This document shows, piece after piece, positions 26,436-43,951 of a DNA stretch of 43,951 nucleotides (its first letter is position 1; each line of letters begins with the position of its first letter). This DNA is from Terriglobales bacterium (GTDB lineage: Bacteria; Acidobacteriota; Terriglobia; Terriglobales; Acidobacteriaceae): NCBI GenBank assembly GCA_015655195.1, contig JAATFM010000255.1, forward strand, positions 1-43,951, in the 5' to 3' direction. A program made the position numbers and the translations under genes. Under the pieces are notes generated by a model, which saw only the letters and a list, made by a program, of their open reading frames with translations, was not told the DNA's origin and made no database searches.

Positions 26436-27485
26436 TCAATGTACCGGGCCTCCTTTTGCACATGAGGAATACAATCCGCTGTCACATGCCTTCTGGTAAT
26501 ACTCCCGAGCTTTGGTCACCACGCCGGCCTTCTTATAGAGAGAGCCGAGGCTGTCACAGGCGTTCGGGATGCCCTGGTCACATGCCAGCGCAAGGTGCGC
26601 CAGCGCATTTTTCATGCCGAGCGGGCCACCCAGCCCCAATGCTTCCATGGTGCCCAGATAGTTGCAGGCGACCATCTCTCCGCCGTTGCAGGCATTGCGA
26701 AACAATCGCCGCGCCTGCGCATAGTGCCTGGTCTTGTAGAAATTCGCGCCCTTTTGGAGATATGTTTCGACTATCCCGAATTGGCTCGGTATGTAGTAGA
26801 CAGCCGAATGCTCATCGCTGTTTCGGTGTCCCTGGGCCGCGGCAATGGCGCGAACGCGTGTTCCGTTGGCCAGTTCCCAAAGAGGGGAATTGTAAACAAG
26901 GGACGACGTGGTAGGGGTTGATCCGTCAGTGGTGTAATAGATCACGGCGCCGGGCGTTTCATCGGTGATGTAGATTGCCTGCCTCCCATTCCCGTTTTGG
27001 TACACATTGGGCGGCGCCGCTTTGGAAGAGGATGCAACCATTGCGATCAGGATCAGCAGGAAGACCAGACCTGCTCCCCCAAGCGCCCATTTCGGAAGGC
27101 CCGTATCCGGCTTAGGAACCGGAGGCTTCTTGCCGTGCGGTCTGGAAGGACCGGGGGCTTGCTGTTTGTCCTGCTGTGAGTCGTTCCGCTTTGTCTCGAC
27201 AGGGGCTACCGCGACGGATGGGCAGGTCAAAGCGGCGGAGAGCAACTTGCGAGCCGCAGCGGGCGAGCCAGCCACGAAGTAAAAGCGGCCACCGGCGGTG
27301 AAGGCATCCATAGCGCCGTCTTTGGCGACTGCGAGCAACTCCTTAATCTGTTTTGCGCGCTTCGCGGGATCGAGATCGACTTCAATGATTTGTGCACTGG
27401 TCCCGTCAATCTCATCCACCGCGGCAAGAATATGAGGTGCATCTTCACGCACGATCTGGAATTGATAGAGCTTTTTGTTCATCAA
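26436..27485 (-). CDS. Operon gene 10: cytoplasmic domain/TM/chitobiase-C-terminal-like/Sel1-like protein
   Basis: TM WALGGAGLVFLLILIAMVASS; TPGAVIYYTTDGSTPTTSSLVYNSPLWELANGTRVRAIAAAQGHRNS; Sel1/TPR-like C-rich repeats EMVACNYLGTMEALG, GIPNACDSLGSLYKKAGVVTKAREYYQKACDSG. Confidence 0.8.
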   Translation of the reverse strand: MMNKKLYQFQIVREDAPHILAAVDEIDGTSAQIIEVDLDPAKRAKQIKELLAVAKDGAMDAFTAGGRFYFVAGSPAAARKLLSAALTCPSVAVAPVETKRNDSQQDKQQAPGPSRPHGKKPPVPKPDTGLPKWALGGAGLVFLLILIAMVASSSKAAPPNVYQNGNGRQAIYITDETPGAVIYYTTDGSTPTTSSLVYNSPLWELANGTRVRAIAAAQGHRNSDEHSAVYYIPSQFGIVETYLQKGANFYKTRHYAQARRLFRNACNGGEMVACNYLGTMEALGLGGPLGMKNALAHLALACDQGIPNACDSLGSLYKKAGVVTKAREYYQKACDSGLYSSCAKGGPVH

Positions 27486-27570: not shown

Positions 27571-28800
27571 CTAATTACGGCTGGCAACAATGGCCACGGC
27601 CGTGGCCGCGCCGATAAAGACAACGAGCAGAACTACGATTCCAATGGGAAAGCCGCGCGGCCTGTTCGGCCTGTCCAAGCCTGACGACATCGCAGCGACA
27701 GGACGAGAAGGCGCATTCGACGCTACATTCAACTCACGAAGAAACTCTCGTGCTACATCAATGTCGATGGCAAAGTTCAATCCCTGCGACTCTGTCTCCG
27801 CGAAAGTAGCCTGACCCACCACCTGCCCGAACTGGTTTAGCGCAGGCCCACCGCTGTTGCCGGGATTGATGGATGCGTCGGTCTGGATCACATGCCACCC
27901 GCCGGACATTTCCTTGATTCCACTTACGTGACCAAATGAAAGCGAAGGCTGAAGCCGGCTTGCCAGCGTGAAGTTATCATCCACGTCCACTTTGCCCGGA
28001 TAGCCCATGATGAGCAGATCGGAACCGGTGCGCACGCTGCCCGTCTCCACGCCCTGGGCCAAGGGCAGCGTGGGAAGATGGTTTCCTTCGATCTTGAGCA
28101 CTGCAACATCCTTGCCGGGGATGGGCTCTCCAACCTTGATAACGGAGCATTGCCTGAGATTGAGCTTGCCGTCGGCGTTCTCTGTGGAGAGCAGGACGCC
28201 TACCTCCCGATCGAAGTGCAGCTTTGCTTCTTTACTGTATTGCCGCGTGAGTGCGGATTTGAGCCGCGCCGCTCCCTCTTCGTTGATGGTTTCGTTCGGC
28301 AAGAGTTGCTGAATGCCCTCGTCAAGCTCCTTGACATCCCGGTCGACCTGATCGGAGATTTTTTCGAGAACGGCTTTGTCGAGATCGTCTTCGTCGGGCT
28401 TGACGACATGGGCATTGGTCAGGATATAGCCATCGGGAGTTACGACAAATCCAGTTCCGAGCACATGGAACTTTGTGCTGATGTCCTGCTCTCCACCCTC
28501 CTCGCGAAGATATTCCTCCGGGGCAGAGAGAAAGGTATCCAATATCTTTTCCATCTTTTCCCGGTCCGAGTCGCCGGCGTTGATGCGCGCCCGCACATCG
28601 GCAGCGAGACGTGCAGTGTTTGGAGCAAAGGCAGGAATGGTGCCGGTGGCGCTGAATTCGGAAACGACGAGTACGGTGGCCGGTCTTGCACGATCGGCGA
28701 TTTGCGTGGGCGACAGCGGAACAAGCACGCCTCGTCCGCCTCCGCAGGAGGATAGAAGAAGGAGCCAGATCAGAACCCCCAGACGACTTCGACCATCCAT
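27571..28800 (-). CDS. Operon gene 9: trypsin-like (HtrA/Deg-type) serine protease, lipoprotein signal plus C-terminal TM
   Basis: Lipobox LLLLSSC; VTPDGYILTNAHVV (His), KDVAVLKIEG (Asp), INPGNSGGPALNQFGQVVG (Ser); C-terminal PIGIVVLLVVFIGAATAVAIVASRN. Confidence 0.88.
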   Translation of the reverse strand: MDGRSRLGVLIWLLLLSSCGGGRGVLVPLSPTQIADRARPATVLVVSEFSATGTIPAFAPNTARLAADVRARINAGDSDREKMEKILDTFLSAPEEYLREEGGEQDISTKFHVLGTGFVVTPDGYILTNAHVVKPDEDDLDKAVLEKISDQVDRDVKELDEGIQQLLPNETINEEGAARLKSALTRQYSKEAKLHFDREVGVLLSTENADGKLNLRQCSVIKVGEPIPGKDVAVLKIEGNHLPTLPLAQGVETGSVRTGSDLLIMGYPGKVDVDDNFTLASRLQPSLSFGHVSGIKEMSGGWHVIQTDASINPGNSGGPALNQFGQVVGQATFAETESQGLNFAIDIDVAREFLRELNVASNAPSRPVAAMSSGLDRPNRPRGFPIGIVVLLVVFIGAATAVAIVASRN

Positions 28801-28809
28801 ACCGACCTC

Positions 28810-29538
28810 TCACTTGTACAGGATTACGTACGCATGCAAAATTACTTCTCCAGTGCCGGGGCGTATCAGCCCGCGGCGGGTGAAGGATGCTATCCTGCCT
28901 GGAATCTTGCCCGGAGACGCCAACGTGCCGACAGGCTGATGCTGCTCTTCGTCCAGACGGTCGCCTTCAACAGGCTCGATGAAGGAAAGTTCCGCCAGTC
29001 CGGCCATCTCTCGAAACGCCGCCTGCAGCGTCTCATTCTTTCTTTGCCGATCCATTTCGTAATCCGAGAGGTGGATCAAAGCCCGCAGGATGTTGGCGGT
29101 ATTTTTCCAGAATGTGTCGGTGAGAGTCGCGGATCTCGTTTTTCCGTTTTTCTCAAGCTCCCAGGCCCACTTGATGACCGGGGGATCGAAGCGAAGCCGC
29201 TCCTGCTCACACACCCGCAGGTTTTTGAGAAACTGTCGTACCGGGTCTGACGGGCGGGCGGTTTGAACCGATCCTCGACGGGGCTGCGAACCGATGCTGT
29301 ACCGGTTATCGACAACGCGAACTGCAAGGCGCTCATTGATCTTTTGGATCACATTGTCGAAGCCGGTCTGAGGAACGGCCCACATCAGGCTGTTGCCTGC
29401 GTGTTTGAGCTCCATGAGCCGTGTCAGCATCTTGCCTGCCTGCCGTTCTTCTTTGCCGGGGTGAAAGAGGATCAGCGCCGCAAGCGCAATTCCACACACC
29501 AGCAAGACAACCGTCGAAACGGCCATGAGGAAATTCAT
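28810..29538 (-). CDS. Operon gene 8: membrane-anchored GrpE-like protein (candidate nucleotide exchange factor)
   Basis: ATG at 29538: MNFLMAVSTVVLLVCGIALAALILF TM; C-terminus FIEPVEGDRLDEEQHQPV...PGRIASFTRRGLIRPGTGEVILHAYVIL follows the GrpE C-terminal pattern; starts 13 nt after the upstream Hsp70-like stop. Confidence 0.7.
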   Translation of the reverse strand: MNFLMAVSTVVLLVCGIALAALILFHPGKEERQAGKMLTRLMELKHAGNSLMWAVPQTGFDNVIQKINERLAVRVVDNRYSIGSQPRRGSVQTARPSDPVRQFLKNLRVCEQERLRFDPPVIKWAWELEKNGKTRSATLTDTFWKNTANILRALIHLSDYEMDRQRKNETLQAAFREMAGLAELSFIEPVEGDRLDEEQHQPVGTLASPGKIPGRIASFTRRGLIRPGTGEVILHAYVILYK

Positions 29539-29551
29539 TTCGTCATCCTTC

Positions 29552-32260
29552 TCAAGGACGGATGTTTCCACCCACCCGATGGAAGAACACTTCCCCACCT
29601 TGTGAGCCAACCGCCGAAACCTGTAGTTGAAAGTCCTTGAGTACGAGGAGCAGCGTCCATGGCTGCCCATCGCCGAGTGGTACTGTGCGCTCCGGCTTCC
29701 AGGTTCCCAGCTTGGCCAACAATTCGTCGTGCAAAGCAACCTCGACGTCTTCGTCTTCCAATGCCAGGTTTTCCCAAAGCGAAATCTTCTCCTCGCCGAA
29801 CCAGTACCCCTTTAGCTCGCCCTTGAGTCCGTCGGCTGGAATATCCCTGTCAACGGGAAGGATCGTGCTGAAGACGCGCGTTACAACGTCAAAGACGCCA
29901 ATGCTGGACGTGGTGCGCTGCGCGCCAAAGGGAAGCACGAGCCGACGCTTCGTGCTCTTGCGCATCGAAACCGAAAGGCATGCGCCGGCGACAACGCATT
30001 CCTTGGGATTCTTTGCAGGGATGATTTTTGCGCGTGGAAATGCCTGATGAATCGTCTCTTCCACGATGGGCAGAAACGATGTTTTGCCGGATAGATGGAT
30101 ATAGTCGAGAGTCTGTACCTTTGCCGCGCACTTGCGCAGGATCTCCACCAACTCGTGCAATTTCCCGCGAGTATGGTCCGCGAACTCTCTTTCAATATCT
30201 CTTCCGCCGGCTGCTCGAATATCGCTGAATGAGAAAATGCGTTCCTGTACCGACTGTGTCTGCTCAACATAGATGGCGAGATTGATTTGATGCGGCGCAG
30301 TGTTTTTCTCGCGGCTTAGACTTGCCTTGAAACTCTCGGCGGTCCTGCGCAGCTCGGACTTGTTGCGGAGAGCGGTATCCGGCAAGACGCCGCTCATCCT
30401 TTCTCGAACTACGCGCTCCCCGGGATGCATGGTTTCGAGAAAGCGATTGCAGTTCTCAAGCAGGCGCGTTTCGAGGAAGGTAGTCAAGTCTTCTCCGCCG
30501 AAGCGCTTGCCACGGGAGTTGATAATCTGAGGCCGAATCTCGGTGAAACCGTATTGACTTTGCCCGCGATGCACCACAAGCACAGCGATGTCCGTTGTTC
30601 CTCCACCCAGGTCGAATGAGGCTACGGTAAAGTCGTGGCGGGGAGCATCACTGCGGCTGGTGATGTCCTTGATAAGGGGCACCACTGCGGCGACTGGCTC
30701 CTGCAGCCAATGGATCGTGCCATCGCCGAAGGCCTGTTTGATGGCGTGGTTCAGGTTGCGGAACTGGTCGTACGAACAAATTGAGGGATGCGTAACGAGG
30801 AACTCGTGGAAGACGGCGTTTTTCTTCGTCTCTGCGGTGCGGCGTATCTCATGCAGGTAGTCGGCGGCGACAGTTGCCGCGCTGCGTTTGAACCATAGCT
30901 CACTGTTCTGAGGACGCACGATGAGCTCGGCGTTCGTCTCTCCCAGTTTCTGCTTGAGGGCGCTGAGCGTGCCTGCCGCTACGGCTTCGTCGACGGATGC
31001 CAGCATTTTGGGGTCGGAACCGATGCGTACTTCCGGCTCAGTGGAGGCGAGGCTCAGGTACTGGACATACGTGGGAGAGATGGGCTTGTCGCCTTCCAGC
31101 GGGATCAGTTCCAGGTCGCAGTCCGTTTCCAGGGCTGCGCAGGTAGTGTTGCTCGATCCAAAGTCGATGGCAAGCATTCCTTCAAACGGCCGCAAAGGCT
31201 CGATGATAAAGGGAACGCGGCGCCTGGCCACAGGAACGTTTGCCGTAACATCCAGAACGAAATGAAACAGGTTCGTAGGCGCGCGCTGCATGTGCTCCAG
31301 ATTCAAATCGAACTCGATTGCGCCCTCCTGGCCGCCGAAAATCTCTATCGGCAACCTGGTAAGAGGCTGGATGACAGCGCCAACACACTCCTGCGGAGGC
31401 GTCAGCGTGACCGATTGAATCGTCAGCTTTGCATTCTTGCGCCCACCCTCCAGGTCGTCATCGGCCTGATTTCGCAAGGCAAAACGCAGATGCTGTCCGG
31501 CAGTCTGGAAGCGAGTCTCCGCAGGCTTGTTCGGATCAGCCCAGCTCAGTTGTGGCGCACTGCGCACCGCCGCGCCGATCCTGACTTCCTTTTCACTTTT
31601 TCCATGGGCTCCCTCGAAACGCACGAGCAGCGTGGCATAGGGTTTCTTTACCAGCAGACCGCTCTCGGCATGGAGATCGAGGGGCAACCGGCATGTCGCC
31701 GAAGACCGGAACGGCTTTTTGAGTGCCGTTGCCACGTTCAAGCCGGTACTGCCACCGGACTCCACTGCATGAATTGTCAGCTCGCCTGCACGGGGCGCCA
31801 TTTCGATTGAGACTTTCTGGCGGGCGCGGCTCGGGGACTCCCATACCTCGATCTCATCCGGAGTACAGACAATTGCCGGGTCTTCGTCGATGGCGCTTAC
31901 ACTGTGCGTAGCATCGCCGATGCTGGTGCGGATGGTGATTTCTCCGCCCTGTGGCTGCGTGAGCGTATCCGTCGCGGCGCGGCACAAGAACCGGCACTCT
32001 CCCCCCGGCTCCACAGTGCGGCCGACGCATGGCTCGACCGTCAGCCATTCCGGCGCAACGATAGAAGAGATGGTAAGCGGCGACAAGGTGGGATTACGCA
32101 GCAGGATGCCGAGGCGCGGTGCTACTTCTCCAACAATCAGGATCGAGGGCTTGACGATGAGCTCGATTCGGCTGCACGGCGATTTGCAATAACCGCACCA
32201 GGCATCCTCGGCCTTGCACACCCATGCCTGGCAGCTCTCGCAGATGCGCGGATCAGACAT
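29552..32260 (-). CDS. Operon gene 7: zinc-ribbon/Ig-like/Hsp70 fusion protein
   Basis: MSDPRICESCQAWVCKAEDAWCGYCKSPC; beta-rich middle; Hsp70 motifs MLAIDFGSSNTTCAAL, VASFDLGGGTTDIAVLVV, YIHLSGKTSFLPIVEETI. Confidence 0.87.
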   Translation of the reverse strand: MSDPRICESCQAWVCKAEDAWCGYCKSPCSRIELIVKPSILIVGEVAPRLGILLRNPTLSPLTISSIVAPEWLTVEPCVGRTVEPGGECRFLCRAATDTLTQPQGGEITIRTSIGDATHSVSAIDEDPAIVCTPDEIEVWESPSRARQKVSIEMAPRAGELTIHAVESGGSTGLNVATALKKPFRSSATCRLPLDLHAESGLLVKKPYATLLVRFEGAHGKSEKEVRIGAAVRSAPQLSWADPNKPAETRFQTAGQHLRFALRNQADDDLEGGRKNAKLTIQSVTLTPPQECVGAVIQPLTRLPIEIFGGQEGAIEFDLNLEHMQRAPTNLFHFVLDVTANVPVARRRVPFIIEPLRPFEGMLAIDFGSSNTTCAALETDCDLELIPLEGDKPISPTYVQYLSLASTEPEVRIGSDPKMLASVDEAVAAGTLSALKQKLGETNAELIVRPQNSELWFKRSAATVAADYLHEIRRTAETKKNAVFHEFLVTHPSICSYDQFRNLNHAIKQAFGDGTIHWLQEPVAAVVPLIKDITSRSDAPRHDFTVASFDLGGGTTDIAVLVVHRGQSQYGFTEIRPQIINSRGKRFGGEDLTTFLETRLLENCNRFLETMHPGERVVRERMSGVLPDTALRNKSELRRTAESFKASLSREKNTAPHQINLAIYVEQTQSVQERIFSFSDIRAAGGRDIEREFADHTRGKLHELVEILRKCAAKVQTLDYIHLSGKTSFLPIVEETIHQAFPRAKIIPAKNPKECVVAGACLSVSMRKSTKRRLVLPFGAQRTTSSIGVFDVVTRVFSTILPVDRDIPADGLKGELKGYWFGEEKISLWENLALEDEDVEVALHDELLAKLGTWKPERTVPLGDGQPWTLLLVLKDFQLQVSAVGSQGGEVFFHRVGGNIRP

Positions 32261-33260
32261 TCTCGATCTCTCCCGGATCGTCGAGAACCCACTCATTCCC
32301 ATTCGCGAGCAGCTTGGCAGCCTTGATTAAGCACTGACGGCTTCCCGGCGTGTAAGTAAAAATGCCTTCGATCCACTTTCGATCCAGGCCGTAATCTATC
32401 CTGAAACTCGGAAGCGCATAATTTATGCCTCCTTTGTTCACCTTGATAAAGTTCCCTTTAACGTCCTCGACAAGGCGCAGGTCTCTGGGGCGATTATTGG
32501 CTCTGGCTTCAATGTTCAACCATGAGATCGGGGTTAACTGGTAATGCTTTGCAAACCACGACTCGTTGCGCAACGAAACGGCGCGATTGTAGTCCGCTTC
32601 GAGATTCCCGCTTGGACCATCCGATTGCAGCGCATTGCCGGCTGCGGAAGAACCTATCTCCAATGAGTCGTCCGGCGATGGGTAGACGGCGCCTGCCGGA
32701 CTATCGCTGAACGACAAGACGGGGTCTGGCGATGATTCACTCGCCGGATACGTGTCCGTCGGCGCGCTCTGCGACCTCGGCTGATTGGAAACCGCTGCCC
32801 GCCTCAAGGCTTCCAGTGCATCCCTGACCGCTTCCTCTGACGCGGCACGCTTTTCCGCTTCCGCGGACAATGCCCGGGACAGCTCTTCCACCTTTTGGAG
32901 TAAGTTGTTCATCTCTTCGGGCAATTTATTTACCTTCGTCTGGAGGGTTGCGATGCTTGCGGTGGTCGTAGAGATCGATTCTGCCTGCTCGCCACTCAAT
33001 GTCAGAACACGGGGCTTGCGCATCAAAATGACAATAAGGAGCACCAGCAACACCAGCCCAAGGACCAGTGGCGCCAGGGGCGAAGTCAGCGCCTGGGCCA
33101 GCTCATCAAGATACCCCTGCAGGCCGTCAGCCCGGGCCGGCGGACTATCGGAAGGATCGGCCAGATTACCATATGCGGCGGTCGCCGACGCTGTGCCGCA
33201 CGCCAGTGCCGCAAGAAGCGCGGCGACGGCAGCTCTTGTATATCCCCCCTGATTTCTCAT
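32253..33260 (-). CDS. Operon gene 6: signal peptide/TM/coiled-coil protein with unknown C-terminal domain
   Basis: TM PLAPLVLGLVLLVLLIVILMRKP; coiled coil TASIATLQTKVNKLPEEMNNLLQKVEELSRALSAEAEKRAASEEAVRDALEALRR; C-terminal WLNIEARANNRPRDLRLVEDVKGNFIKV; ATGA overlap with gene 5. Confidence 0.82.
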   Translation of the reverse strand: MRNQGGYTRAAVAALLAALACGTASATAAYGNLADPSDSPPARADGLQGYLDELAQALTSPLAPLVLGLVLLVLLIVILMRKPRVLTLSGEQAESISTTTASIATLQTKVNKLPEEMNNLLQKVEELSRALSAEAEKRAASEEAVRDALEALRRAAVSNQPRSQSAPTDTYPASESSPDPVLSFSDSPAGAVYPSPDDSLEIGSSAAGNALQSDGPSGNLEADYNRAVSLRNESWFAKHYQLTPISWLNIEARANNRPRDLRLVEDVKGNFIKVNKGGINYALPSFRIDYGLDRKWIEGIFTYTPGSRQCLIKAAKLLANGNEWVLDDPGEIENV

Positions 33261-38416: not shown

Positions 38417-38926
38417 TCAATGGGGCAAGTATTTTGCCGGCCAGATGCGGTAACGCGCATTCAGCGGCGAACAGAAAACCGAGGCCGTCCAGTAGAGAAA
38501 GATGCTGACGCCAATGTAAAACGCGGCGACATAGCCTGGTTTGTAATCCTCTGTAAATCCATTCAATACAGGCATGGCAACAAAACTGACGATGCAGGCA
38601 GAGACCAGAATGACAACCAGAAGCAGCCACCACACCAACAGCCAGGTAGAGGATCGAGCGGTGGGACGGATGACAGCCGCGGTCAGGACATGCCACACGA
38701 GGAAACAGACCAGCGATACGCTAAGAACGATTGCGGCATATGTCTGAAAGGATGTGACCAGATTTATTAACTGAGTGACCTGCTGCTGTCCACCATGCGG
38801 GTCAAGCTCCGTGCCGAGAACCTTGAGAACGAGCGGATTGTCCTCTCCCTGCACAAGGATGGCGGCAAAGGCGATGCAGTAGAACAAAAGCGCTATGACA
38901 ATCTTGACGAGTGTGCTGTTTTTCAT
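38417..38926 (-). CDS. Operon gene 3: integral membrane protein (about 4 TM)
   Basis: Hydrophobic segments LVKIVIALLFYCIAFAAILV, YAAIVLSVSLVCFLVWHVLTAAV, TWLLVWWLLLVVILVSACIVSFVAM, YVAAFYIGVSIFLYWTASVFC. Confidence 0.85.
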   Translation of the reverse strand: MKNSTLVKIVIALLFYCIAFAAILVQGEDNPLVLKVLGTELDPHGGQQQVTQLINLVTSFQTYAAIVLSVSLVCFLVWHVLTAAVIRPTARSSTWLLVWWLLLVVILVSACIVSFVAMPVLNGFTEDYKPGYVAAFYIGVSIFLYWTASVFCSPLNARYRIWPAKYLPH

Positions 38927-38932
38927 GGTTCC

Positions 38933-40447
38933 TCAGTCGGCATGAACAAAAATGTAGTGATGATTCATAATCCGTTGTTCTTTATCGTTGAAAACCTCAG
39001 TCTGCAGAACCCTCAAAAATTCCGTTAAATCGGGTGTCAGCCCTGGACTGGAATCCTCAATCCCGGCAATCTTCCTGAAATGCCCGTCTGGATAGCTGGC
39101 CGGATTCATCGCTTTGGGCATTGCGATGCTCCAGATATGCAGCGGCGCTGCGTCGTCCGTATCTTCCAGGTTCGAGGATGCAGACTCCTTAACATCCACG
39201 CGGAACCGATAATTGCGCCCCGGAAGCAGCGCCGTGCGGTCGATGGCGATGCAGGTCTCGACTCCCTGGGAGCAGGAGACCGCCGAGATGGCTGCCGCCT
39301 TGTCGTCTTTCGGGGGATTGTGCGCCCCGTTTTGATTTCCATACACAACCGCGCTGATGCTATCGCCGCCACGAGCACCCGCTGCAATCGACCATGCTGG
39401 TTTCCACCCCGTCGTGCTCGCCCATGCATCTGTCGGCGGCTCCGTCCACTTTGCCGTCAGTTTCCCCTTGTCCAGCTTGTAAAATGCAATTGTCGAGCCC
39501 CGATAGTTGGAATCAAAGATGTGAGGCCGGTCCCGATCGCCTTTCACATCTCCATCTCCCAGCGCAGATCCGGTATACCCGCTCTCGCTCTTCGAGAAAT
39601 AGACCAGTTGTGCCTTACCTGTACTGAATGCGTCCACGAGTTTCGTCCGGTCCAGCAGAAACCGCACTCCATATTGCACGTCCGTTGCCGGGCCGCTCAA
39701 AATCACGTAAAAAGGCATTGAGGTTGCCTCCGGCTTCACAGGCAGATCTTCCACTTTCCCGTAGTACGGATTCCGAATCGCAAGAACGGCTACCGCGGTG
39801 GCATCGCTACGCAAATAGCGTTCTCCGATCTGTTCCCCCAGCGCGTTTAGGATTTGTTTATTCGGATCGCTCTCATACAAATCCGAAATCAGAATCTTCA
39901 ACTCCGGCGAGTTATCCAGTTTGTGCTGCGGCCGCAGCTTCTGCGGGCATAGCGCCGTTGGATCGGCGCTGAAGGGAATCCTGAGCTTCGTGTCCTTTTC
40001 CTGGAATCTGCCTGCCGGGTCGTTCCCCATCGTTGCAGCCTCTCCCGCGGGAAGAGGAATTGGACAATCTTCTCCAAAGCGCCAGAAATGAACCTTATCT
40101 TTTCCCCACTCCGAGGACCCCTCCTGTGACTCAATTCTTTCCAAAAGGGTCTGCAGGTAGTTGGTTCCGGAGACTGGCTGTTCCTCGGCTTGTGCCCGCT
40201 TGTCAGGATTATGGAGAAAGTGTTCAATCGATCCCGATCCGTCGATGTAAATGTTCACCACCAGTCCCGGCGTTGGCTTATAACCTGCCTGGGAAGAAAC
40301 GGGCTCCGACGGAACTTCGAGATCCTTTGCAGGCGGAGGGGCGCAGGCAGATACGCTTACGATGACCCCCACCGTAAGCACACCGGCCAGCATCGACCCG
40401 ACCATAGTGAGGTTGTTCACGCCAGATAGCTCCTTAAAAAGCATCAT
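38933..40447 (-). CDS. Operon gene 2: VWA-like lipoprotein
   Basis: Lipobox-like VIVSVSAC; VVNIYIDGSGSIEHFL (MIDAS-like DxSxS); ELKILISDLYES; 4-nt ATGA overlap with gene 1. Confidence 0.78.
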   Translation of the reverse strand: MMLFKELSGVNNLTMVGSMLAGVLTVGVIVSVSACAPPPAKDLEVPSEPVSSQAGYKPTPGLVVNIYIDGSGSIEHFLHNPDKRAQAEEQPVSGTNYLQTLLERIESQEGSSEWGKDKVHFWRFGEDCPIPLPAGEAATMGNDPAGRFQEKDTKLRIPFSADPTALCPQKLRPQHKLDNSPELKILISDLYESDPNKQILNALGEQIGERYLRSDATAVAVLAIRNPYYGKVEDLPVKPEATSMPFYVILSGPATDVQYGVRFLLDRTKLVDAFSTGKAQLVYFSKSESGYTGSALGDGDVKGDRDRPHIFDSNYRGSTIAFYKLDKGKLTAKWTEPPTDAWASTTGWKPAWSIAAGARGGDSISAVVYGNQNGAHNPPKDDKAAAISAVSCSQGVETCIAIDRTALLPGRNYRFRVDVKESASSNLEDTDDAAPLHIWSIAMPKAMNPASYPDGHFRKIAGIEDSSPGLTPDLTEFLRVLQTEVFNDKEQRIMNHHYIFVHAD

Positions 40448-41853
40448 GCAAACCGCCAGTGGGCAAGCTTCAGTCCTTCGGTCCCAGGATTGGTAGAGAA
40501 TTTTAAAAACGGTACCACCACATCGTTTCGGTCAATTAAAATCCCGCAGCAGGAATCCTCATTGCATTCGTTCCGCTGGTCTGGGAAAAGCGCCGACACC
40601 GCAGCGGCGCCCGAACCAATCGCAATCTTCCGCCAGCCGGGCTCCGGGTCCGGGTAGAAATATGCCGCTCGCCCGGCATCGAAGCCAACCGGCATCGCAG
40701 CCCTCATGGTGTGCCGCAGGGCCGGCTCATCGGGCTGCCCTGGAAACTCGATGCCCGCAGATGTGGCGGTAAAGAACCTTCCCTCCGGGAGGCTATGCAC
40801 GGCGAAACTTTCGCCATTGGCAACGTCATGGAAAGAGTATTCGCCCCGATCGAGCGAGACCTCAAGCAACACTGGACGATGCGACTCCTGTCCCCCGATC
40901 CTCTCTACGCGGTAACCGGCAATCCATGCATGTGGACCGCTGTCTGCGGCGACCGCCGCCATCGGCATCTGGCTCAGGGGCACGCCAATCCCTTTCGCTT
41001 CGCGGTTCATCATGGGCAGGAAATTCTCCGGTAAAGGAACAGCGCGTGTGCGCCCGGAGTCTATATCGAGCACTCCAATCGATTCCTCGCTGCAGAGAAT
41101 GATAAATTGACCGCTGAGCGCCGGACCGCAAACATCGGCTCCGCTGATTTTGAGAGGCTGCTCGACGGGTCGGTCGCCAGAGAAATACACAAGCGTCAGT
41201 GCGATCTCGCCGCCGCTGGTTCGGACCGCGACGGCGCAGAAATTCGGAGTGGCCGCCACACCCTTGAAGCCAGGCGAGTCCGCCTCAATGGAATTTGCAA
41301 GGATCTTTTCGTTCTCCTGCGGCTTGTAGAGGAGAGAAACCTGCCTGGTGGCAAGCGATACCGCTTCCAGACCGGACGGGCTGACCGCCAGGTACAGATA
41401 GCCGCGCAATCCCTTTTGCGAGTGCGCCGCCTCCACTATCGCACCGGCATTGAACCCCGCCCGGCCGAATTTGAGCTGCGCTACTTCACTGGATTGTGCA
41501 CTGCTGCGGGGAGCAATCGAGATTAGCTTGCCGCCGATGTCGAGCAGATACAACAACCCGTTAGCCAACAGCGGCGGGCGCCGGAAACATCCCCGCACGG
41601 AGAGAAAATCAGCCTTCGGAGCCTCGCCGGCAATCGAGGCGGCTGCGGGAGGCTCAAGATAGGCTCGGCAGGCGCGGCAATAGTGCGCGCCTGCGCGGTT
41701 CAGCGCCGAGCAGGATGGGCACACTACGATTGTTTGGCGAAGCTCACAGGAACACACAGTCGAGCGATTGACAGTGTCCTGTATTCGTTCGCACAACGCA
41801 AAGGGACAAAGGCGTGCTGAGGTCGCCATTGAAATCAACGGGAGCTGGTTCAT
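40444..41853 (-). CDS. Operon gene 1: zinc-ribbon and beta-propeller-like protein
   Basis: VVCPSCSALNRAGAHYCRACRAYLEPP zinc ribbon; repeated beta blades (LLANGLLYLLDIGGKLISIAPRS, GYLYLAVSPSGLEAVSLATRQVSLLY, QFIILCSEESIGVLDIDSGRTRAVPLP); ATG at 41853. Confidence 0.78.
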   Translation of the reverse strand: MNQLPLISMATSARLCPFALCERIQDTVNRSTVCSCELRQTIVVCPSCSALNRAGAHYCRACRAYLEPPAAASIAGEAPKADFLSVRGCFRRPPLLANGLLYLLDIGGKLISIAPRSSAQSSEVAQLKFGRAGFNAGAIVEAAHSQKGLRGYLYLAVSPSGLEAVSLATRQVSLLYKPQENEKILANSIEADSPGFKGVAATPNFCAVAVRTSGGEIALTLVYFSGDRPVEQPLKISGADVCGPALSGQFIILCSEESIGVLDIDSGRTRAVPLPENFLPMMNREAKGIGVPLSQMPMAAVAADSGPHAWIAGYRVERIGGQESHRPVLLEVSLDRGEYSFHDVANGESFAVHSLPEGRFFTATSAGIEFPGQPDEPALRHTMRAAMPVGFDAGRAAYFYPDPEPGWRKIAIGSGAAAVSALFPDQRNECNEDSCCGILIDRNDVVVPFLKFSTNPGTEGLKLAHWRFA

Positions 41854-41886
41854 AACCACTCTTGGAATGTTAGACCCGAGGGGATA

Positions 41887-41915
41887 AGTATAGGCCCGGC
41901 ACAATTGCGCGTCAA
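41887..41915 (-). promoter_or_regulatory. Sigma70-type promoter for the operon
   Basis: Minus strand TTGACG (41915-41910), 17-bp spacer CGCAATTGTGCCGGGCC, TATACT (41892-41887), about 34 bp upstream of ATG 41853. Confidence 0.75.
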
Positions 41916-42409
41916 CAGAATTAGGGCAATCAGCCAGGGATGGCTGCGAAGCTCTGCTCAAGCACACTAACAATCAACGGACGGCGCCGTGACTACGCCT
42001 GCATCTGCGACGAGCGCATCTCGCACCAACTTGTATCGTGCTGCACGAAGGCGGATAAGTTCTTCCAATCCTACTTATGGGGATTTTCACTCTGGCTTAA
42101 CAATTTGCAGCGAATCATCGTATAGAAAAGAAGTATTCCTACAGTGATCTGTAGTTATGATGCTGAGCGGGCATCGTGGATATCTACGTGTACGTATTGA
42201 TCGAATTGCGTGCTCGCTACACACGAAGATCTGCAACAAATCCTTCACATAAAAATATCAATCCTTGCTGTTGAGAACAGACCGGCTCAACAGTCACTGC
42301 GATAGAGGGAATGTTTCATAACTTTCCTCTCGAATGCCGCACCACGCCCATGCCACGCGATAAGTGTCCTGGCGAAGTGGAGAGCGCGCAGCATCTTATG
42401 GAGGCTTTT

Positions 42410-43951
42410 GTGCGATTTCTGTCGAAGGTGTTGTCGGGTAGCCGGCTGATAGCTACGAGCGTTGCGCTGGTAGGCGTTCTAATGATGATGGGTTGCGGAA
42501 GCAGTTCATCCTCCATGTCGGGCAATGGGACCGCAACGCCCACCTTTAGTCCCGGTGGCGGAACATACAACACATCGCAGTCAGTTACGATTGCCGATAC
42601 GACACCTGGCGCCGCGCTTTATTGCACCACTGACGGAACTACACCCACAACAGCCTCTCCGCATTGCAGCCAGCCGACCACGGTATATCAGACGGAATTT
42701 CTGCAGGCGATTGCGGTCGCTCCGAATATGGCGCCCAGCGCGGTGGCCTCGGCTGGATACACGATCAATCTGAATGGCGCGGCTACGCCGACCTTCACTC
42801 CTGCGGGCGGTACCTATACTTCCGCGCAGACGGTGACCATCGCTACAGCGACGACCGGCGCGAATATCTACTACACCGTTGACGGTTCTGTGCCGACACA
42901 GAATTCGACGTTGTATGCGGGGCCGGTGACAGTCTCTCAATCGGAGACGCTCAGCGCGATAGCTGTGGCAAGCGGGCTTAGCAACAGCGGCGTAGCCAGC
43001 GCGACCTACTCCATCGTTGCGGCGGGTTCGACACCTGCGGCAGCGCCCGCGATCTCGCCCAATGGCGGCACATTTACGTCTGCGCAGACTGTGACGATTA
43101 CAGATACGAGTAGCGGCGCGAACGTCTACTACTCTATCGATGGCAGCACTCCGAGTGCTACCTCACCGACCTCGACGCTCTATAGCGGACCGATTACGGT
43201 TTCGGCATCGGAGACGATTAAGGCGATCGCTACCGGCGGCGGCTTTACCGACAGCCCGGTAACGACGGCGGCCTTCACCATCAGTTCGGTAACCACGACG
43301 CCTGCTGCGGCTCCCACGATCTCGCCGAACGGCGGCACATTCACCTCCGCGCAGACGGTGACAATCGCGGATAGCAGCACTGGCACGAGCATCTACTACT
43401 CCGTTGATGGCAGCATGCCGAGCTCTACCTCTTCCACCTCGACACTCTATAGCGGCCCGATCACGGTATCGGCGACGGAGACTGTCAAAGCAATCGCGAC
43501 AGGTGGCGGTTTCACCGATAGCCCGGTAACGACGGCGGCCTTCACCATCACTGCGGTAACCACGACACCTGCTGCGGCTCCCACGATCTCGCCGAATGGC
43601 GGTACATTCACATCGGCGCAGACGGTGACAATCGCAGATGACAGCACTGGCGTGAGCATCTACTACTCCGTTGATGGCAGCACGCCAAGCTCTACCTCTT
43701 CCACCTCGACGCTCTACAGCGGTCCGATTACGGTATCGGCGACTGAAACTGTTAAGGCCATCGCAACCGGCGGCGGCTTTACCGATAGCCCGGTAACTTC
43801 GGCAGCCTTCACTATCAGCGTGCCTACACCGGCGGCTGCGCCCGTCTTCTCTCCGAATGGCGGTTCCTTTACATCGCAGCAGACGGTGACGATTACGGAT
43901 GCCAGCATGGGCGCGAGCATCTACTACTCCGTCGATGGCAGCACGCCGAGC
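42410..43951 (+). CDS. Lipoprotein with tandem chitobiase/beta-hexosaminidase C-terminal-like repeats; 3' end runs off window
   Basis: GTG 42410 after GGAGG-N5 (ATG 42398 also possible); lipobox VLMMMGC; at least six units of type PNGGTFTSAQTVTIADSSTGTSIYYSVDGSTPSSTSSTSTLYSGPITVSATETVKAIATGGGFTDSPV. Confidence 0.85.
   Translation, partial: MRFLSKVLSGSRLIATSVALVGVLMMMGCGSSSSSMSGNGTATPTFSPGGGTYNTSQSVTIADTTPGAALYCTTDGTTPTTASPHCSQPTTVYQTEFLQAIAVAPNMAPSAVASAGYTINLNGAATPTFTPAGGTYTSAQTVTIATATTGANIYYTVDGSVPTQNSTLYAGPVTVSQSETLSAIAVASGLSNSGVASATYSIVAAGSTPAAAPAISPNGGTFTSAQTVTITDTSSGANVYYSIDGSTPSATSPTSTLYSGPITVSASETIKAIATGGGFTDSPVTTAAFTISSVTTTPAAAPTISPNGGTFTSAQTVTIADSSTGTSIYYSVDGSMPSSTSSTSTLYSGPITVSATETVKAIATGGGFTDSPVTTAAFTITAVTTTPAAAPTISPNGGTFTSAQTVTIADDSTGVSIYYSVDGSTPSSTSSTSTLYSGPITVSATETVKAIATGGGFTDSPVTSAAFTISVPTPAAAPVFSPNGGSFTSQQTVTITDASMGASIYYSVDGSTPS
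43030..43951 (+). repeat. In-frame 267-bp tandem repeats within the lipoprotein gene
   Basis: Antisense ORFs at 43180, 43447 and 43714 recur at exactly 267-bp spacing; units share long near-identical DNA blocks. Confidence 0.9.

Follow-up and report, generated by a model that had tools for sequence, protein, structure and literature searches.

Does a bacterial nucleotide-exchange factor of the GrpE type work from the membrane, on an Hsp70 of its own? This question is raised by two adjoining genes in a 43,951-nt stretch of DNA (hereafter the window; contig JAATFM010000255.1 of assembly GCA_015655195.1) from a Terriglobales bacterium living in soil. Reviews describe GrpE as the sole known type of Hsp70 exchange factor in bacteria, one that inserts its beta-domain as a wedge in the cleft of DnaK and turns subdomain IIB, leading to ADP release, and they discuss localised nucleotide exchange for eukaryotic factors (PMC4753570, PMC8215388). 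In Escherichia coli, GrpE is evenly distributed across the cell (PMC8215388). An earlier note on the window had read one of the two genes as a GrpE-like protein that begins with a transmembrane (TM) helix and the other as its Hsp70-like partner. The features concerned are the following:

28810..29538, minus strand: P0001, single-pass TM-anchored GrpE-like protein, 242 aa
29464..29520, minus strand: P0001 transmembrane helix, residues 7-25 (VSTVVLLVCGIALAALILF), predicted N-out/C-in
28819..28998, minus strand: P0001 GrpE-type beta-domain, ~residues 181-240
29552..32260, minus strand: P0002, Hsp70-like protein, 902 aa from ATG 32260

Gene start and predicted membrane topology of P0001

On rechecking, the open reading frame of P0001, its strand, its coordinates and the C-terminal residues that had been quoted were all correct, as was the 13-nt spacing between the stop of the Hsp70-like gene and the start of P0001. 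The ATG at 29538 is preceded by AAGGA (AAGGA-N7-ATG). A longer frame from TTG 29739 is mechanically possible, but it would overlap the Hsp70-like gene.

The protein does begin with a TM helix, as the earlier note held (residues 7-25, mean Kyte-Doolittle 2.82). By comparison, none of 29 canonical GrpEs drawn from Acidobacteriota genomes contains a TM-like segment (Kyte-Doolittle maximum 1.19). No K or R stands ahead of the P0001 helix, whereas the 20 residues after it contain five, and most of the protein should therefore be cytoplasmic. In all five proteins measured, a single N-terminal TM precedes a stretch of 20 residues with 3-5 K/R; four have no K/R ahead of the TM, and the single R of the fifth stands before the Met at which that protein likely starts. 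The residue charges thus support a topology with one N-terminal TM, a positive-inside bias and a cytoplasmic C-terminus. A hydrophobic N-terminus is in principle cleavable, and P0001 could instead carry a signal peptide and work in the periplasm. We consider this very improbable, given that P0001 has no positive n-region, that the positive charges come after the hydrophobic segment in 5/5 proteins measured, and that P0002 starts Cys-rich (MSDPRICESC) without any hydrophobic stretch. Moreover, two GrpE-like domains in other membrane proteins (the second copy in G071 and the G324 protein, below) are placed N-terminal to a TM, on its K/R-rich side.

Profile-level homology to GrpE

Searched alone, P0001 scored 11.9 bits (E=0.19) against Pfam GrpE (PF01025), below the cut-off of 25.8, although this weak match fell exactly on the beta-domain (P0001 181-226 vs. 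profile 107-151). An NCBIfam scan of the single sequence was likewise too weak to be decisive. Its closest relative, from Terracidiphilus gabretensis S55 (G071, same genus as the window genome), reached 18.3 bits. The earlier note had let its reading depend on a GrpE hit; as a single sequence P0001 has no significant Pfam match, whereas the profile of its family does match GrpE. This four-member profile (A1: P0001, two stretches from G071 and one from genome G052) aligned with the 29 canonical GrpEs over 134 columns in hhalign (score 51.8, prob 93, P=3.4e-7). Control scores were far lower, with 200 column shuffles averaging 13.4 (SD 2.6, maximum 26.8) and the reversed profile giving 18.8. The C-terminal 60 columns alone scored 37.1, where 60 shuffles reached no more than 18.6. 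The GrpE-like C-terminus that had been claimed therefore stands above chance in profile-profile comparison. Run against 396 whole genomes, the A1 profile retrieved, after its own members, the canonical GrpE of the host, five other evident GrpEs and a pair of additional GrpE-domain proteins (L009 and L012).

P0001 resembles canonical GrpE (PF01025; 1DKG) in the beta-domain pattern G-x3-D-x3-H ... G-I/V ... G ... A-x-V, and in having an Hsp70 as partner gene. The helical region ahead of the beta-domain was also covered by the 134-column alignment; the stalk/dimer helices were not clearly recognised. In a MAFFT alignment, G192, D196, H200 and G223 of P0001 fall on positions that canonical GrpEs conserve to 90% or more, and I216 is aligned with a conserved V; G214 and A236 agree with the GrpE motif when read by hand and in the family alignments A1/A6. 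Other near-invariant positions are changed, among them the F and the P of FDP (L195 and E197). Unlike canonical GrpE, P0001 has an N-terminal TM anchor and a sequence below the Pfam cut-off, and it is an extra copy beside the host GrpE, its gene fixed next to a non-DnaK Hsp70.

Structure-based comparisons were less informative. A plain HMM search of the PDB with the four-member profile matched no GrpE; a seven-member profile found GrpE 1DKG at 3e-4, which is not independent because that profile includes overt GrpEs. The AlphaFold models of P0001 and P0002, built on only 3-4 aligned sequences, were of low confidence (pLDDT 55 and 47), and a Foldseek search with the P0001 model returned no match to the GrpE fold. 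The weak single-sequence Pfam score and the lack of a fold match from this poor model are what would speak for a chance resemblance, with P0001 an unrelated membrane protein. That idea is scarcely credible and was rejected, since the profile far exceeds all 200 shuffles, the whole-genome search retrieved GrpEs, and bridging homologues that are overt GrpEs likewise carry the TM and sit in the equivalent gene position. Homology at the profile level supports P0001 as a divergent member of the GrpE superfamily.

The adjoining Hsp70-like protein

The neighbour of P0001 proved to be a genuine Hsp70 relative, in agreement with the earlier note. P0002 comprises N-terminal zinc-finger-like Cys motifs (four Cys within the first 25 residues), a beta-rich region, an Hsp70 nucleotide-binding domain (NBD, ~residues 362-770) and a C-terminal region. 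In a PDB HMM search it matched best the NBD of DnaK in its complex with GrpE (1DKG, E=3.7e-11), and hhalign against 30 DnaKs gave prob 98.6 and P=1.2e-15. Within that alignment, the DnaK stretches TIYSIKRFMG (with Lys70), NEPTAA and DFGGGTFD are paired with TLSALKQKLG, QEPVAA and DLGGGTTD of P0002, respectively. The catalytic motifs of the NBD are retained, with AIDFGSSN, ALKQKLG, QEPVAA, DLGGGTTD and LSGKTS all opposite catalytic or nucleotide motifs of DnaK; P0002 therefore probably cycles. The alignment with DnaK extends some tens of residues beyond the NBD. However, the tail alone had no clear significance as an SBDbeta, so that a lidless SBDbeta is only suggested as a possible identity of the C-terminal region.

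The GrpE signature of Hsp70s is located in a loop of lobe IIB. The corresponding stretch is 31-35 residues long in the window relatives vs. 28 in the only two DnaKs measurable by pattern, which makes this a weak test; as far as length goes, P0002 relatives seem to have the signature, which is reported to be missing from HscC (PMC8215388). Elsewhere, the host genome encodes its own soluble canonical GrpE and two DnaKs, and P0001 and P0002 are thus an additional, system-specific set.

Membrane-anchored GrpEs beside Hsp70 genes in other genomes

Three genomes of another acidobacterial class (G388, G458 and G521) encode overt GrpEs with an N-terminal hydrophobic helix, all above the 25.8-bit Pfam cut-off:

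L048:10692-11372, minus strand: G388 TM-anchored GrpE (= L012), Pfam GrpE 31.6 bits, 12 nt after an Hsp70-type gene
L088:9660-10430, plus strand: G458 TM-anchored GrpE, Pfam GrpE 33.6 bits, 6 nt after an Hsp70-type gene
L089:3070-3831, minus strand: G521 TM-anchored GrpE, Pfam GrpE 31.0 bits, 19 nt after an Hsp70-type gene

These sister proteins, in the equivalent gene position, support the reading of P0001 in the earlier note as a membrane-tethered GrpE-like protein. They are also infrequent, being present in only 3/162 genomes of their class. With the TM part removed, the window family aligned to this clade with a score of 45.3 (shuffle maximum 20.7). An Hsp70-type gene followed by a TM/GrpE-like gene occurs at seven loci, in the window, G071, G052, L047, G388, G458 and G521. 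The copy on L047, a contig from an alphaproteobacterial metagenome-assembled genome (MAG), is strongly diverged, has lost the conserved His and has no Pfam match; its assignment as the GrpE-like counterpart rests on synteny, through its position, together with its TM.

GrpE-like domains were also found in two other membrane proteins. In G071, a second one (L046:20746-21177, plus strand; L006:16572-17975) forms part of the TM protein with CHB_HEX and Sel1 that the operon also encodes, and is located where K/R are enriched relative to the TM of that protein; the window homologue of this protein (P0008) is without it. A protein of G324 (L049:1806-2849, minus strand) combines a GrpE domain above the Pfam cut-off (35.8 bits), situated on the K/R-rich side of a weak TM segment, with a C-terminal LysM slightly below cut-off (20.4 vs. 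20.9 bits), and no Hsp70 gene was recognised beside it. From these two cases, GrpE-type domains seem to be attached to the membrane in more than one architecture.

Operon context and comparison with known systems

P0001 and P0002 belong to a predicted minus-strand operon that runs from 41973 to ~25119, with a gene order largely kept in G071, G052 and L047: zinc-ribbon, vWA-like lipoprotein, small TM, tubulin-like, actin-like, TM coiled-coil, Hsp70-like, GrpE-like, trypsin-like and CHB_HEX/Sel1 TM protein. Around the pair, it contains the following:

40444..41973, minus strand: zinc-ribbon protein whose beta-rich, repetitive region may form a propeller
38933..40447, minus strand: P0006, predicted lipoprotein with a vWA-type MIDAS motif (IYIDGSGS)
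38417..38926, minus strand: small protein with several TMs, also kept in G052 and L047
36817..38460, minus strand: P0005, tubulin-like (Tubulin_2/FtsZl1-like), with a GGTG loop
33257..36832, minus strand: P0004, 1191 aa, actin/Hsp70-like phosphate motif DIGGGTTD in the C-terminal half
32253..33260, minus strand: TM protein of 335 aa with a coiled-coil-like stretch, a conserved operon gene
27571..28800, minus strand: trypsin-like protease with a predicted lipoprotein signal and a C-terminal TM
26436..27485, minus strand: P0008, N-terminal domain, TM, CHB_HEX/Fn3-like and Sel1/TPR

Several of these assignments are below formal thresholds. P0005 matched Pfam Tubulin_2 at E=0.0027 and 17.5 bits (cut-off 27), and the DGSGS motif of P0006 was seen by eye, with no Pfam vWA match. 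The N-terminal half of P0004 has a conserved IHSIPDPW motif and is covered by no Pfam family. PADLOC returned solely generic protease and coiled-coil matches on the operon. Beyond the operon, at 42311-43951 on the plus strand, a secreted-looking protein with many similar CHB_HEX/Fn3-like repeats runs off the contig end.

A whole-GTDB scan with two short P0004 peptide patterns found only T. gabretensis and one alphaproteobacterial MAG, and it missed G052; within the reach of two such patterns, the exact operon appears rare. Nearly the entire operon is present on the 76.9-kb L047 contig, which reflects either horizontal transfer or a mis-binned contig. Among the Tubulin_2 loci examined in our phylum sample, the Hsp70/TM-GrpE pair occurred only at G388:C13, and the operon around the G388 relative includes an unambiguous Tubulin_2 (6e-62).

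With its phosphate motif of the actin/Hsp70 type and its place in the same operon, P0004 could itself be the protein that the GrpE-like domain serves, rather than P0002. We regard this as quite improbable, since the Hsp70-type gene is the immediate upstream neighbour of the GrpE-like gene in 7/7 loci and since G458 and G521 have no detected P0004 homologue in the stretch searched.

The window operon resembles two described kinds of system. It recalls the vWA/FtsZl1 operons, which are predicted membrane-remodelling machinery, in its candidate tubulin-like protein, its candidate vWA-like protein with a MIDAS motif seen by eye and its many TM proteins, which are lineage-specific in those operons (Makarova and Koonin 2010, PMC2875224). 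By contrast, the tubulin-like protein of the window falls below the Tubulin_2 cut-off, and the main text on those operons includes neither Hsp70 nor GrpE (PMC2875224). The second kind is the predicted conflict-type systems with a GAP1-N2 DO-GTPase. In the part of Kaur et al. 2020 (PMC7159879) covered here, HSP70 and GrpE occur in 14% of their neighbourhoods, mainly in actinobacteria and firmicutes, and tubulin in 52%. Their pairing of a dedicated HSP70 with GrpE has its parallel in the window, as have the tubulin and vWA proteins of others of the class and the themes of trypsin, zinc ribbons and TM parts. However, the description in that part makes no mention of a membrane-anchored GrpE, and 12 operon-region proteins of the window gave no GTPase/GAP1 match among the Pfam models of the library used. 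A further parallel is E. coli HscC with membrane-inserted DjlC (and tail-anchored DjlB), likewise a specialised Hsp70 with a co-chaperone at the membrane (PMC8215388). In that case it is a J-protein that is anchored, and HscC is without the GrpE signature, whereas the anchored partner in the window is GrpE-like.

A proposed exchange factor at the membrane

We propose that P0001 is probably a dedicated, membrane-localised nucleotide-exchange factor for P0002, an activity that we infer from homology and gene order. The N-terminal tail of GrpE would be replaced by a transmembrane anchor, and the beta-domain would face the cytoplasm and open the nucleotide cleft of P0002, as GrpE does for DnaK. 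Release of ADP from P0002, ending the bound state, would then occur at the membrane. There, the two proteins would sit with the membrane or periplasmic products of the operon (TM coiled-coil protein, vWA-like lipoprotein and trypsin-like protease), to be joined by the cytoplasmic tubulin-like and actin-like NTPases. The contact between P0001 and P0002, the exchange itself, any coupling across the envelope and a role in the wider system are all inferred steps. Recurrence of the pairing in other bacteria suggests that the chaperone cycle operates at the membrane rather than cell-wide. A more speculative extension, which we put forward tentatively, is a second, spatially restricted Hsp70 cycle, in which the anchored GrpE confines exchange on the zinc-ribbon/Hsp70 ATPase to the inner membrane and tubulin-like and actin-like assemblies are switched upon a periplasmic signal.

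The main competing explanation is that P0001 keeps the GrpE fold without exchange and serves as a tether or scaffold, recruiting P0002 (or holding it open) so that it assembles at the membrane with the tubulin-like and actin-like products of the operon. This is consistent with the partial retention of near-invariant GrpE positions, chiefly Gly/His, with operon neighbours that are mostly membrane or cytoskeleton-like, and with the adaptor-like embedding of the second GrpE-like domain of G071 in a different membrane protein. Yet the GrpE motif of the sister clade is good enough to pass the Pfam cut-off, and the catalytic motifs of P0002 are kept, as expected of an ATPase that probably cycles. 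We therefore rate a pure tether as unlikely, though worth weighing, and favour nucleotide exchange.

GrpE partners dedicated to a system-specific Hsp70 have been reported before (PMC7159879). What is new, as far as our searches go, is the transmembrane anchor on a GrpE-like protein and its recurrence; the phrase membrane-anchored or transmembrane GrpE was absent from open-access full texts, a body that leaves most subscription journals outside. If our proposal is true, bacteria, too, place nucleotide exchange at a chosen site, via a GrpE that is anchored in the membrane and paired with an Hsp70 of its own. Operons with tubulin, Hsp70 and vWA are poorly understood and are thought to act in membrane remodelling or defence. 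Exchange by the soluble domain on the partner NBD is a simple assay and would give a biochemical handle on them.

Variations on the pairing were seen at other loci. The Hsp70-type proteins beside two of the anchored GrpEs (L048:11385-14576, minus strand; L088:6003-9653, plus strand) begin with 75 residues that resemble a J-domain without HPD (hhalign 23.2; maximum 20.0 over 100 shuffles), and such a J-like domain fused to Hsp70, plus an anchored GrpE, would make a compact chaperone system. In G513, an extra GrpE without an obvious TM (L050:5830-6603, plus strand; 63.1 bits) lies immediately ahead of an additional Hsp70 gene and is, with it, another predicted dedicated GrpE-Hsp70 pair.
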